DNA of 29,819 bases from positions 1 to 29,819 of IMG/VR virus record IMGVR_UViG_3300028377_000039; one strand, written 5' to 3'. Shown in pieces: positions 13,695-26,262 of this stretch. The stretch's first letter is position 1. Every line of letters begins with the position of its first letter. The notes beneath the pieces are model-generated. The model made no database searches and had not been told where the DNA came from. It worked only from the letters and a program-made list of their open reading frames with translations. This DNA comes from a virus. The translations under genes and the position numbers were made by a program.

Positions 13695-14942
13695 ATGAAA
13701 TACATACGAGAAAGAAATCAATTTAAATTTAATATAACACTACCAAAGGTAGTTAAACTTATCAATTCTATATTTGAGAAAGGTGGGTATAAGTTATATT
13801 TAGTTGGTGGTGCTGTAAGAGATTTCATTGATGGGAGAAAACCTAAAGATTTTGATGTTGCTACAAATGCTACACCAAAAGAGGTAGTTGAAATGTTCTC
13901 TGAAATATTCGGAATTAAAAAAGAAAAAGCTAATGAATACATTTTAAATAATAAGTGGAGGATTAACTTACAGGGTGAATCTTTTGCGGTTGTAGTTATC
14001 TATATCCCTGGGGAAAGGGAAGGTATCGAGATAGCTTCTTTTAACACTCGACATGATGGTAAAATCGTGGTAGATGGTGTAACTCTTGAACAAGATGCTG
14101 AAAGAAGAGACCTTACCTTTAATGCTCTTTATTATGATATATCTAAGGGTGAAGTAATTGATCTTGTTGGGGGGGTTGATGATCTGAAAAATAAAAAAGT
14201 TAGAATGGTTGGTGATCCTGATGAAAGAATTAAAGAAGATCCTTTAAGAATCCAAAGAATATTTAGATTTGCTTGTAGATATGATAGTGTAATGGATGAA
14301 GAAACCAAAAAAGCCATTAATGGGAATAAAGATCTATACCGAAATTCCACTCCTGAGAGACCTAATGGTGTTTCCCAAGAAAGGATAATTCAAGAGTTTG
14401 TAAAATCATTTAAGACATCTCCGGATTTCACCACATACTTAGGTTTTATTAATGAATTTAAAATGTGGGATATACTATTCCCTGGTATCAGTTTTGGTAC
14501 ATTTGATATAAGTAAATATACATCAACAAACAAGTTGAGTATCTGCTTGTCTCAAATATTAATCAATGAGGGGATGGATATCTTTAAATCAATTATGGTT
14601 AATGAGTGGAAGTTTCCTAAAGATATAACTCAAGAAACATCTTTATTTGTTGAAATGACTCGGTTGGAAATGAGTAAGAAAGCAGTTAACTTGAAAATGA
14701 GAAAAGAAAGGTTCAACATTTCAGATAAAATCACTAAAGAGTTCATTAACCTAATGGGATTGAATGATAAGGAAATTATCAAAAGTTTCTTAAAGTTCGA
14801 TCCAACTATTGATTCTAAAAAATTAATGGATAAGAATGGTATTGAGAATAATAATGGTAAAATAAAAAACCCATCAAAGGATGGTAAAAAATTAGGTATG
14901 TTAATATCTAAGGAAAGAATAAATAATTTTAATTCTTTATAA
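13695..14942 (+). CDS. CCA-adding / poly(A) polymerase-type nucleotidyltransferase
   Basis: This 415-residue class II polymerase-beta nucleotidyltransferase carries GGAVRD (38-43) and the metal-binding DFDVAT (Asp52 and Asp54). It also has RRDLTFNALYYD (138-149, the sugar-discrimination motif) and DERIKEDPLRIQRIFRFACR (176-195, the base-templating motif). About 25 extra residues sit in the head domain between the catalytic loop and IASFNTRHDG. The family includes tRNA CCA-adding enzymes, which repair or complete tRNA 3' ends, and bacterial poly(A) polymerases; sequence alone does not separate them well. The tmRNA in this window lacks an encoded CCA, which favours a CCA-adding role. The next gene starts one base after its stop. 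Confidence 0.88.
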   Translation: MKYIRERNQFKFNITLPKVVKLINSIFEKGGYKLYLVGGAVRDFIDGRKPKDFDVATNATPKEVVEMFSEIFGIKKEKANEYILNNKWRINLQGESFAVVVIYIPGEREGIEIASFNTRHDGKIVVDGVTLEQDAERRDLTFNALYYDISKGEVIDLVGGVDDLKNKKVRMVGDPDERIKEDPLRIQRIFRFACRYDSVMDEETKKAINGNKDLYRNSTPERPNGVSQERIIQEFVKSFKTSPDFTTYLGFINEFKMWDILFPGISFGTFDISKYTSTNKLSICLSQILINEGMDIFKSIMVNEWKFPKDITQETSLFVEMTRLEMSKKAVNLKMRKERFNISDKITKEFINLMGLNDKEIIKSFLKFDPTIDSKKLMDKNGIENNNGKIKNPSKDGKKLGMLISKERINNFNSL

Positions 14943-21080: not shown

Positions 21081-22061
21081 ATGAATATTAAAGAAAAATT
21101 TATAGAACTAACTTCAAAAACGTATCCTCACCCACAGGATATTGAAGTATTAAAACTATTGCCTGATGGTCTAACAGAAGATCCATTTGGTAACTATTAT
21201 AAAGTAATAGGTGACTCAGACACTATATTCTCAGCTCATTTAGATACAGCAGACATGAACCAAAAAGATGTAACTCATATTTTTGATAAAGATGAGAATG
21301 GTGATGAATGGATAAGAACTGATGGCACTTCTATATTAGGAGCTGATGATAAAGCAGGTGTGGTAGTACTACTCTATATGATGGAGAATAAAGTACCAGG
21401 TATATATTACTTCTTTGTTGGTGAAGAAGTTGGATTAGTTGGGTCTGGTAGGTTATCAGATAACTTCGAAAAATTTAAATTTCTAAGTGATGTTAAACGA
21501 ATGGTTTCATTTGATCGTAGAGCATTTAATTCTATTATAAGTAGACAGATGGGTAGAAACTGCTGTTCAAAGGAATTCGTAAGTGATTTATCAGAACAAT
21601 ATGGTAAAAATGGATTGGTTATGACTGATGATCCCACTGGTATTTATACTGACTCTGCTATTTTTATAGATAAAATACCAGAGTGTACAAATATAAGTGT
21701 TGGTTATTTTAACGAACATACACATAGAGAGTGTCAGAATATTAGTTTCCTTGAAAGGTTATGTGAAGCTTCTATAAATGTTAAATGGGATGAATTAGAT
21801 ATAGGAAGAAGTTTAGGTATAGATGAAGATTTATATGATGAAAAAGAGGAAATAATTGAACATATAGAATCTTTAGAATTTATAAATGGGAAATCTATAC
21901 ATGAGGAAGATGGTAAATTATGTATATCATTAACAGTTGAAGATACTTCAAGTGAGGTTTTATTGACTGAAATAGAAGCTTTAGTAGAGACATTCAATAA
22001 ATTTAAAAGCGATATAGATGTTAAAGTAAATCAAAATACTATTGAAATACTTGTTGATTAA
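21081..22061 (+). CDS. zinc metallopeptidase, M20/M28/M42 (MH clan) type
   Basis: This 326-residue protein has the conserved metal-ligand order of di-zinc exopeptidases. His53 and Asp55 are in FSAHLDTA, Asp89 in ILGADDKAGVVVLL, Glu115-Glu116 in VGEEVG, Asp145 in VSFDRR, and a late His (213 or 215) in FNEHTHRECQN. The segment TDGTSILGADDKAG is closest to peptidase T-like enzymes. These enzymes trim short peptides in the cytoplasm. The usual dimerisation insert is short or absent, so it looks like a compact M28/M42-like form. It could finish peptides released by ClpCP. It leads a rightward run with the next two genes. Confidence 0.8.
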   Translation: MNIKEKFIELTSKTYPHPQDIEVLKLLPDGLTEDPFGNYYKVIGDSDTIFSAHLDTADMNQKDVTHIFDKDENGDEWIRTDGTSILGADDKAGVVVLLYMMENKVPGIYYFFVGEEVGLVGSGRLSDNFEKFKFLSDVKRMVSFDRRAFNSIISRQMGRNCCSKEFVSDLSEQYGKNGLVMTDDPTGIYTDSAIFIDKIPECTNISVGYFNEHTHRECQNISFLERLCEASINVKWDELDIGRSLGIDEDLYDEKEEIIEHIESLEFINGKSIHEEDGKLCISLTVEDTSSEVLLTEIEALVETFNKFKSDIDVKVNQNTIEILVD

Positions 22062-24586: not shown

Positions 24587-24642
24587 TATATTTGTTATAC
24601 AATAAAAAACAATACTAATTAAAAGAAATTAGTTCTTTGACA
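24587..24642 (+). promoter_or_regulatory. tmRNA promoter and boxA-like element
   Basis: TATATTTG at 24587-24594 fits the Bacteroidota -7 consensus TAnnTTTG, about 50 bases before the mature tmRNA 5' end. GTTCTTTGACA at 24632-24642, just upstream of the RNA, resembles the boxA antitermination element (TGCTCTTTAACA), which is common before stable RNA genes. A clear -33 box is not obvious. Confidence 0.45.
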
Positions 24643-24645
24643 TAT

Positions 24646-25029
24646 GGGGGTGACTTGGAATAGATCACTGACAATTGAGAGTAGTAAGCAGGTATCGGAT
24701 TTTCTATTAATGTGTCCGATTAATAAATTAGTAGGAAAATGCTTAATTGCAAACACGAATGAAGTCGGCTCAGTAGCTGACGTATTAACAGTAGTTAATG
24801 AAACTGCGGAAGCAGTTTCAGTCTAGTTGGAGAACTAGGTCTATTTGTAAATACTACGATAAACTCAAAAGCAGGTTGGTTACTTTACTGTAATAAAAAT
24901 ATGTAACACAGAGTTTTTTATTTCTCTGAAACAAAAATAAATATTTGTTTGTTTAGAATAAATAAACTAAGCTTGTAGAAATCATTTTTAATGTTAGATG
25001 AGACATGGGTTCGAGACCCATCATCTCCA
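24646..25029 (+). ncRNA. ssrA: transfer-messenger RNA (tmRNA)
   Basis: The ends form a tRNA-like half. GGGGGTG (24646-24652) pairs with CATCTCC (25022-25028), discriminator A25029 follows, and the T-arm is ATGGG-TTCGAGA-CCCAT (25005-25021). CCA is not encoded (CTA follows). Helix 2 pairs 24668-24673 with 24992-24997. Pseudoknot 1 is clear: ATCGGA/TCCGAT (24694-24699, 24715-24720), with loop 24700-24710 pairing to 24728-24739 with one bulge. The resume codon GCA (24749-24751) follows TAATT, matching the E. coli TAGTC context. The frame ends at TAG 24824-24826. It gives 25 residues starting ANTNEVGSVA, like ANDENYALAA, but ending AEAVSV instead of a Leu-Ala-Ala type end. Later hairpins (24802-24819, and others up to 24960) and CTAAGC-x-TGTAGA near the 3' side are also tmRNA-like. 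Confidence 0.92.
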
Positions 25030-25045
25030 CTAAACACATTTATGT

Positions 25046-25084
25046 ACCTTGTTATTTTATATATACTTTATAAAATAACAAGGT
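25046..25084. repeat. perfect 16-bp hairpin between tmRNA and endonuclease gene
   Basis: ACCTTGTTATTTTATA (25046-25061) is an exact inverted repeat of 25069-25084, with a seven-base loop. No T run follows, so it is a poor terminator. It ends six bases before the ATG at 25091 and may block ribosome access to the endonuclease message or define the tmRNA precursor 3' end. Confidence 0.55.
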
Positions 25085-25252
25085 ATAAAAATGGCAAGAA
25101 AAGATTTTTTGCAAATCCTTGTTTCACGCAAATTCACCCAACATCACTTCATTTATAAAACGATTAATACACTTAGCGGTAGGTATTATATCGGTATGCA
25201 CTCAACTGATGATTTAGATGATGGGTATATGGGTAGTGGGGCTTATTATTTT

Positions 25253-25477
25253 TGAGATAGAAATATTTACAACAATTTACGCCCATTTACAAATTTATGT
25301 GTATATACGAAAAAACATCCAGACAAGAACAAAATAACTAAAGAGAAAAATAATATTTTCGCTCTATCTACCAACCCAACTACCAACCTATCTACCAACT
25401 CATCTACCAACCTTTGAAATTTTTGGACATCCAGAGCTAAGTAAATATCCACAAATTCAACAATTTCTTTTGCCGAT
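25253..25477. other. 225-bp insertion splitting the GIY-YIG gene
   Basis: The boundaries are inferred from where the endonuclease sequence stops and resumes (uncertain by about 10 bases). The insert is less A-rich than its surroundings and holds a four-copy 12-bp tandem repeat. Two overlapping plus-strand frames lack start codons. One, from about 25340, reads YLPTQLPTYLPTHLPT, then FEIFGHPELSKYPQIQQFL. No transposase or terminal inverted repeats are visible. Confidence 0.5.
25364..25411. repeat. four-copy 12-bp tandem repeat
   Basis: Four 12-base units, CTATCTACCAAC, CCAACTACCAAC, CTATCTACCAAC and TCATCTACCAAC, follow one another without gaps. Units 1 and 3 are identical. The array lies inside the insertion that breaks the GIY-YIG gene. 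Confidence 0.85.
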
Positions 25478-25881
25478 TAAGATTAGCTATGCGTAAACAT
25501 GGTAAAGTTAATTTCACAAGGGAAATATTAGAATTCTGTGAGGATAGGATAGAACTAAGTGATAGAGAATGTGAAATAGTTAGTTTAAATGAAATATCCA
25601 AAGTTGATTGTATGAATATGAGAGTTGGTGGGACTGGAGGAGCTTCCAAAGCGGGTAATGACGCTTATTTATATAGATTACATAATGATGATGAATTCCG
25701 AAAAATGATTACTGAAAAAGCTAAGGCTAATACCATAAGATTAATTAAAGAGGGTAAGTTAAAACCTTGGACTAAGGATAATTATTATGATTGGAATGGT
25801 AAAAAACATTCTGATGAAACAAAGAAAAAAATGTCCGAAGATAAGAAAGGTACTGGTATGGGTGAATCAAATTCTCAATAT

Positions 25882-26205
25882 GGTACTTGTTGGATAACAA
25901 GGAATGGTGAGAATAAAAAAATCAATAAAGAATTGCTTGACATATACATTATTGATGAATGGATTAAGGGAAGGGTATCTAAGAAAGGTACTGGTATGGG
26001 TGAATTAAATTCCCAATATGGTACTTGTTGGATAGTAAAGAATGGTGAGAATAAGAAAATTAACAAAGAATTGCTTGATACATACATTATTGATGGATGG
26101 ATTAAGGGAAAGGGTACTTGTTGGATAACAAGGAATGGTAAAAATAAAAAAATCAATAAAGAATTGCTTGATACATACATTATTGATGGATGGGTCAAAG
26201 GAATA
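25882..26205 (+). repeat. three direct repeats in the endonuclease C-terminus
   Basis: A unit of about 93 bases encoding GTCWITRNGENKKINKELLD plus YIIDGWIKG starts at 25882, 26020 and 26113. The first two copies are joined by a 45-base linker whose first part (KGTGMGE-NSQY) is also repeated at 25846 and 25984. The copies are nearly identical in DNA, so the expansion is recent or kept alike by recombination. Confidence 0.85.
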
Positions 26206-26262
26206 ACTAAGAAAATTAAAAATGGTATGGGTAATTAGATTAATATTACCCATCGGATTAAT

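Follow-up and report, generated by a model that had tools for sequence, protein, structure and literature searches.

In mycoplasmas, which lack ClpXP, the extended tmRNA tag ends in AFA and is read by Lon (PMC3985003, PMC9097571); this tag and Lon are also cited in PMC11986505, and that of M. florum is printed as AANKNEENTNEVPTFMLNAGQANYAFA in PMC9097571. In E. coli, an A at position -4 (A86) was found to be critical and is what chiefly sets the resume frame (PMC2481249). Also in E. coli, ssrA variants with the endings ASV, AAV, and LVA form a graded series of degrons that still destabilize GFP, ASV and AAV less so (PMC9097571). In a 2025 tmRNA database that covers RefSeq viruses, the most frequent tag length is 10 aa (PMC11915505). 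Among phages, tmRNA and SmpB were mentioned in huge phages by Al-Shayeb et al., who called tmRNAs with ARAGORN and assigned their genomes larger than 634 kb to the Mahaphage clade, whose hosts are Bacteroidetes (PMC7162821). The locus described here resembles those in clade and hosts, and the passages of that paper drawn on here do not mention the tags. In the open-access literature, which leaves out most subscription journals, we found no description of the phage tags reported below.

The window, the whole stretch of 29,819 nucleotides of viral DNA that was analyzed, was searched with Rfam models under an E-value threshold. The complete RF00023 model (positions 1–374) aligned to 24646–25032 with 45.7 bits and an E-value of 5.5e-17, and, judged from its sequence, this stretch is a full-length tmRNA (Table 1). 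The score lies 1.3 bits short of the gathering cut-off of 47 bits, which is a database threshold and not a biological feature; a default Rfam search of the window therefore reports no family. ARAGORN reported no tmRNA in the window, and the related tmRNA of LR756504 clears the cut-off with 65.2 bits. The whole-RNA fold had a z of -4.2, and none of 100 shuffles was as good. The tRNA-like domain comprises a 7-bp acceptor stem with G3-U70, a T-arm with the T-loop TTCGAGA, and a discriminator A at 25029 that closes it; CCA is not encoded, and ACTA stands in its place.

Table 1 Positions of the tmRNA gene, its parts, and the candidate partner genes in the window
Feature	Position	Strand	Evidence
ClpC-like AAA+ unfoldase, 726 aa	1701..3881	+	Pfam; PHROG "ATP-dependent protease"; 57% to G077 homologue
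ClpP-family peptidase, 255 aa	3909..4676	+	PF00574, E 1.5e-51; 27 bases after ClpC-like gene
tRNA nucleotidyltransferase, CCA-adding type	13695..14942	+	PF01743; PHROG tRNA nucleotidyltransferase
M28-type peptidase	21081..22061	+	Pfam, protein search; relatives in LR756502 and LR745206 ~0.6 kb upstream of tmRNA
tmRNA (ssrA) gene	24646..25032	+	Rfam RF00023 full length; ends set by acceptor/T-arm pairing
Acceptor stem 5' strand GGGGGTG	24646..24652	+	Pairs with 25022–25028 CATCTCC, G3-U70 included; RF00023 alignment
Pseudoknot 1 region: ATCGGA...TCCGAT, then TTTTCTA paired with TAGTAGGAAAA	24692..24740	+	Sequence, fold; motif common to relatives
TAATT ahead of resume codon, A at -4	24744..24748	+	RF00023 alignment, family contexts
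Tag frame, 25 codons and TAG: ANTNEVGSVADVLTVVNETAEAVSV	24749..24826	+	Frame reading; homologous tags in relatives
Hairpin 1 in tag: GTCGGCT CAGT AGCTGAC, 7-bp, tetraloop	24764..24781	+	Fold; counterpart with compensating change in L182
Hairpin 2 in tag: ATTAAC AGTA GTTAAT	24784..24799	+	Fold
Hairpin 3 in tag: GAAACTGC GGAA GCAGTTTC	24800..24819	+	Fold
Hairpin 4, holds tag stop TAG; likely counterpart of helix 5	24822..24839	+	Fold
Conserved 3' tmRNA box AACTAAGCTTGTAGA	24965..24979	+	RF00023 alignment
T-arm ATGGG-TTCGAGA-CCCAT, then acceptor 3' strand CATCTCC	25005..25028	+	RF00023 alignment, acceptor/T-arm pairing

The neighboring genes point to the origin of the window. In protein searches, its ClpP had 67.6% identity over 81% to a protein of the 635 kb record LR745206. 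Its M28-type peptidase scored best against LR756502 and LR745206 (43.7% and 43.8% over 98–99%), followed by LR756501 (50.0% over 77%) and LR756504, and all four of these records contain tmRNAs. The gap from peptidase to tmRNA is 2.6 kb in the window and about 0.6 kb, on the same strand, in LR756502 and LR745206. These matches suggest that the window probably belongs among the Mahaphage-type huge phages, as a piece of a giant bacterial virus. Protein scans of viral contigs with the neighboring proteins found no closer relatives; a DNA pattern for pseudoknot 1 succeeded instead.

The DNA around the gene was also inspected. The motif TATATTTG (24587–24594 in the window) was found in 26 of the 50 distinct upstream stretches of 80 bases, where 3.2 would be expected; its position is frequently close to -27 but is -59 in the window, and we take it to fit the Bacteroidota TAnnTTTG promoter element. 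Directly 5' of the gene, GTTCTTTGACAT (24632–24643) presumably resembles a boxA-like leader, and GTTCTTTGA was found in 6/50 distinct upstream stretches. On the 3' side of the tmRNA, a long palindrome, CCTTGTTATTTTAT...ATAAAATAACAAGG (25046–25084), which gave spurious microRNA matches in Rfam, is possibly a terminator or a processing hairpin. Right after the tmRNA, at 25091–26238, lies an apparently broken GIY-YIG homing endonuclease, recognized as such by eye, which reads GRYYIGMHSTDD...GSG up to a stop; the next frame contains a NUMOD3 motif and near-repeats of GTGMGE.NSQYGTCWI.

The tag frame opens with the resume codon GCA at 24749 and ends after 25 codons at TAG 24824–24826, and both the coordinates and the peptide had been given correctly in the original prediction; the shifted frames close early, at codon 5 (-1) and codon 9 (+1). 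The placement of the resume codon was likewise confirmed, with RF00023 putting UAAUU/GCAAAC of the window on its resume-codon consensus and with an A at -4 in 24/24 distinct contexts of the phage family (T at -5 in 23/24). The codon TTA 24743, two codons upstream (tag LIANTNEVG...), was considered since the aligned peptides extend upstream in frame, and was rejected because UAAAY right before a G-starting codon is near-invariant, a pattern also seen in the Rfam consensus and in UAGUC of E. coli. Read-through or recoding of the TAG at the tag end, which would add LEN before a second TAG, was disfavored. The listed genes of the window stop at TAA (27), TGA (7), and TAG (2); because two of them end in TAG, it was counted as a working, though rare, stop. 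The original prediction held that a Leu-Ala-Ala signal is absent. LAA is indeed missing, but to call the signal simply absent is an overstatement, as the C-terminal VSV is close to the degradable ssrA variants ASV, AAV, and LVA.

The pseudoknot 1 pattern found 99 viral stretches in IMG/VR, of which 71 were tmRNA-like and the other 28 (L169 among them) were not. Long tags were read in 68 of the 71; one tag was short (L130), and two ran off the DNA (L087 and L181). The frame was chosen by similarity to long tags and by more than 60 open bases, a choice that favors long tags, and L130 was spotted by eye. With the window and four Mahaphage-type records of 635–735 kb, the 68 loci make up 73 phage tmRNAs with 42 distinct tags of 24–40 aa (median, 29), so that the comparison with related phages proposed in the original prediction returned a family of homologous long tags. 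About eight tag types were distinguished by eye, and because the sequences are related, the 42 tags are not 42 independent events. The tags lie at an equal distance from pseudoknot 1, and their stops are TAA in 69 and TAG in 4 of the 73 tmRNAs. The C-terminal residue is Ala (26) or Val (16) in 42/42 distinct tags, a small or hydrophobic end of the LAA/LVA/AAV/ASV class, and Ala and Val together account for 27% of the tag residues. By eye, L130 combines the same pseudoknot 1 motif with the short tag DGAYAPVRMAA and is a possible short-tag relative; L385, found later and standing outside the 73/42 counts, has a 32-aa tag with the end VAA. A second scan with the pseudoknot pattern, in a genome collection, gave at least 116 stretches, and among the 80 looked at (L186–L265), a crude GCA filter let through one, L201, which was not tmRNA-like.

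The tag of the nearest relative, L182, whose contig is 508 kb long, is GNVITNEVGSLSDILSVLAKSKTTATQVEELEIA, and that of L111 is GNIITNEVGTKADLAF...ELELAA; the window tag aligns with both through TNEVG(S/T), and the central peptide is recognizably conserved across these three and the main group of tags. Of the 90 alternative frames of the 45 distinct nucleotide tags, 89 are interrupted by a stop. For 20 ungapped main-group tags, pN/pS was 0.60 (bootstrap, 0.44–0.79) in the tag frame, whereas the shifted frames gave 0.79 and 0.74, which weakly suggests constraint at the peptide level. The open frame, the constant Ala/Val end, and the recognizable central peptide are stronger points for such constraint than pN/pS.

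The tRNA-like ends of the relatives were analyzed in 73/75 selected entries and located in 64, with 9 not located. G3-U70 was kept in 39/39 distinct acceptor-stem rows, and the stem varied in step, a variation biased toward pairing, as the ends were located by complementarity. Among the 64 tmRNAs with both ends located, the T-arm loop was of the GGCAGUA/GGCGGUA type and not UUCRANN in 32, mostly with a 6-bp stem, and UUC in 12. The former loops were seen in L070, L071, and about 30 IMG/VR loci, with G3-U70 still kept; a tRNA-like domain without a canonical T-loop would be unusual, and these ends were placed by complementarity.

As a control from the likely host phylum, 61 Bacteroidota genomes were drawn, one of which was left out for want of a match above the cut-off. 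The tags of the 60 tmRNAs were 9–10 aa long in 59/60 and had xAA-type ends in 58/60, and the two deviating readings look like ARAGORN misreads; the phage tags therefore have roughly three times the length found in the likely host phylum. Compared with the standard RF00023 tmRNA of E. coli and Bacteroidota, the window RNA shares the G3-U70 acceptor stem, the T-arm, pseudoknot 1, the A at -4, the G-starting resume codon, and the ANxN/GNxN tag N-terminus, whereas it differs in its 25-aa tag in place of 9–10 aa, in the end VSV in place of xAA, in the hairpins inside the tag frame, and in being 1.3 bits under the Rfam cut-off and ARAGORN-negative.

The mycoplasma tags are similarly long and have a degron that extends beyond the last three residues; that the stretch NTNEV is common to the tags of the window and M. 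florum is probably a coincidence. However, an AFA end was found in 0/42 distinct phage tags, and Lon (PF05362) was found in 0/20 phage records (control, 13/14), which ruled it out as a phage-encoded tag partner. The tmRNA of the Bxz1-type mycobacteriophage ET08 (tag ATDTDATVTDAEIEAFFAEEAAALV) is also phage-encoded, with a tag of exactly 25 aa and a Val end, but shows no evident tag sequence similarity and belongs to a phage of an actinobacterial host. Phage G (tag AKLNITNNELQVA) and ten ARAGORN-found IMG/VR tmRNAs with tags of 19–31 aa (L005, L011, L017, L021, L028, L050, L057, L058, L066, and L068) likewise exceed 10 aa and have Ala ends, whereas their tag sequences are unrelated. Several of these ten tags end in LALAA, and long tags thus recur in unrelated phage tmRNAs.

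The partner genes of trans-translation were searched in the related records. SmpB was present in 8/25, exactly those of at least 270 kb (LR756502, LR745206, LR756501, LR756504, G001 of 476 kb, G002 of 385 kb, G003 of 271 kb, and G077 of 508 kb), and did not turn up in any of the 17 shorter ones, the window fragment among them. The ClpC-like protein of the window has two AAA modules and a UVR motif in Pfam, and its Pfam search gave no match to the Clp N-domain, which docks adaptors. It shares a GVGF loop with the G077 protein; a loop of this type presumably binds ClpP, as in ClpP-binding ClpC (also ClpA and ClpX). Frames of about 670–750 aa with the same D2 module were noticed in several huge phages. 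A ClpB/ClpC-type D2 module was detected in 9/20 records and ClpP in 11/20, and a protein search also found both in G077. A ClpP of the phage's own is not universal, because LR756501 and the 385 kb G002 gave no ClpP match, though both have the long tag and a ClpC-like gene. The nearest relative, on its 508 kb contig, combines a homologous long tag with SmpB, a ClpC-like protein, and ClpP. The CCA-adding-type enzyme of the window fits a tmRNA gene without an encoded CCA, and this nucleotidyltransferase could finish the CCA-less tmRNA.

In our best reading, the window tmRNA would be a phage-encoded RNA with a genuinely extended tag and part of a Mahaphage-type phage trans-translation kit. The architecture of the RNA, GCA 24749 with its A at -4, the 25-aa tag, its homologous family, and the SmpB, ClpC-like, and ClpP genes of the larger related records are read from sequence; every step beyond the RNA itself we infer. 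The phage tmRNA would be alanylated, G3-U70 being kept, and given its CCA by the nucleotidyltransferase, and would enter stalled ribosomes with phage or host SmpB. The unfinished protein would then gain Ala and the 25-aa tag, and a ClpP-type protease would degrade the product. The VSV end would act as a weakened ssrA-type signal and the conserved central segment (NEVGS..D-hydrophobic) as an added recognition element, whose most likely reader is the ClpC-like unfoldase of the phage itself, which lacks the N-domain, and rescue and recycling would thereby continue during host takeover. The more likely tag partner is a Clp-type machine, of either host or phage. A tag-protease pairing of the phage's own, as raised in the original prediction, appears plausible, with the ClpC-like gene adjoining ClpP in the window and a matching set in the nearest relative. 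Overall, we consider it fairly probable that tagged products are degraded with a role for the phage ClpC-like unfoldase. The weak pN/pS signal, the uneven presence of ClpP, and the SmpB-negative window fragment count against it, and RNA hairpins, not the peptide, may have shaped part of the window tag. A further version can be proposed only tentatively, namely, that the phage keeps a private line of rescue and degradation with its own tmRNA, SmpB, CCA enzyme, and N-domain-less ClpC with ClpP, in which the tag center has co-evolved with the unfoldase, routing is independent of host ClpXP, and the tag in the window's branch is both a peptide degron and an RNA hairpin chain.

It is unlikely, though several observations agree with it, that host ClpXP or ClpAP alone handles the long tag through its Ala/Val end, in which case the extra length would be a neutral spacer and other tasks, such as head maturation, would fall to the phage Clp genes. 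The Ala/Val end of all 42 distinct tags fits such a route, LR756501 and G002 lack a ClpP match, and pN/pS is just 0.6. In addition, the PHROG matches of the window ClpP are mostly head maturation proteases, which phage ClpP-like proteins can be. However, the conservation of the central peptide from the window, L182, and L111 to the main group speaks against it, as do phage tags that stay at 24–40 aa against 9–10 aa in the host phylum and the ClpC-like gene that adjoins ClpP in the window.

The tag is also a folded stretch of RNA. Tetraloop hairpins stand back to back along it, four when the adjoining downstream sequence is counted, and the 75-base tag has a lower folding energy than all 150 dinucleotide shuffles (z -3.4) and all 150 synonymous shuffles (z -2.9). 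The tags of L182, L115, L129, L091, and L095 fold similarly. L182 has a matching 7-bp tetraloop hairpin 1 at identical codons, which differs by a single double change from A-U to C-G and by two one-sided changes; a shifted form of it occurs in L385. In both, the pairing was read by hand. The tag might accordingly be long because the RNA needs its hairpins, the four being an RNA element translated by chance. We regard this as improbable, since the EVGTSEDL tags of the large main group are equally long without folding in this way (mean z of -0.6 over the 45 distinct nucleotide tags), and RNA structure is therefore no general reason for the tag length, although it may add to it in the window's branch.

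That the tag protects or redirects products, with the phage tmRNA outcompeting that of the host and tagged proteins being stable or sent elsewhere, is more doubtful still. LAA is missing from the window tag, and the TLD-only phage RNA of DS6A inhibits host tmRNA (PMC4131195, PMC11915505). However, the phages carry SmpB and a Clp-type unfoldase, and because 42/42 distinct tags end in Ala or Val, a retained degradation signal fits better than protection or redirection. A base error or pseudogene hiding a short tag that ends in Leu-Ala-Ala, an option raised in the original prediction, is very unlikely: the window is known from a single contig and its Rfam score is slightly under the cut-off, but the relatives share the long frame, its ending, and its constant distance from pseudoknot 1, and the GCTGAC noted at the place of the E. 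coli stop, although present (24776–24781), is the paired 3' arm of hairpin 1. Because related giant viruses have it too, the long tag is genuine and inherited, not an artifact of sequencing.

The molecule itself is thus of a known kind, a tmRNA, and what is new is the extended tag family with its partners. ARAGORN, a usual caller, misses the window tmRNA and returned no tmRNA on the Mahaphage loci tried here, and phage ribosome rescue is therefore probably under-counted. An extended tag with a matching protease is established for mycoplasmas, in which Lon took over the tag once ClpXP had been lost. With a viral case as the second, in which the partner appears to be of Clp type, the co-evolution of tag and unfoldase would become testable in natural pairs, supplied by the 42 distinct tags and by the ClpC-like genes that several of these genomes also carry. 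If the tag and protease are orthogonal to those of the host, the two could serve as a new, tunable degron pair in Bacteroidota.
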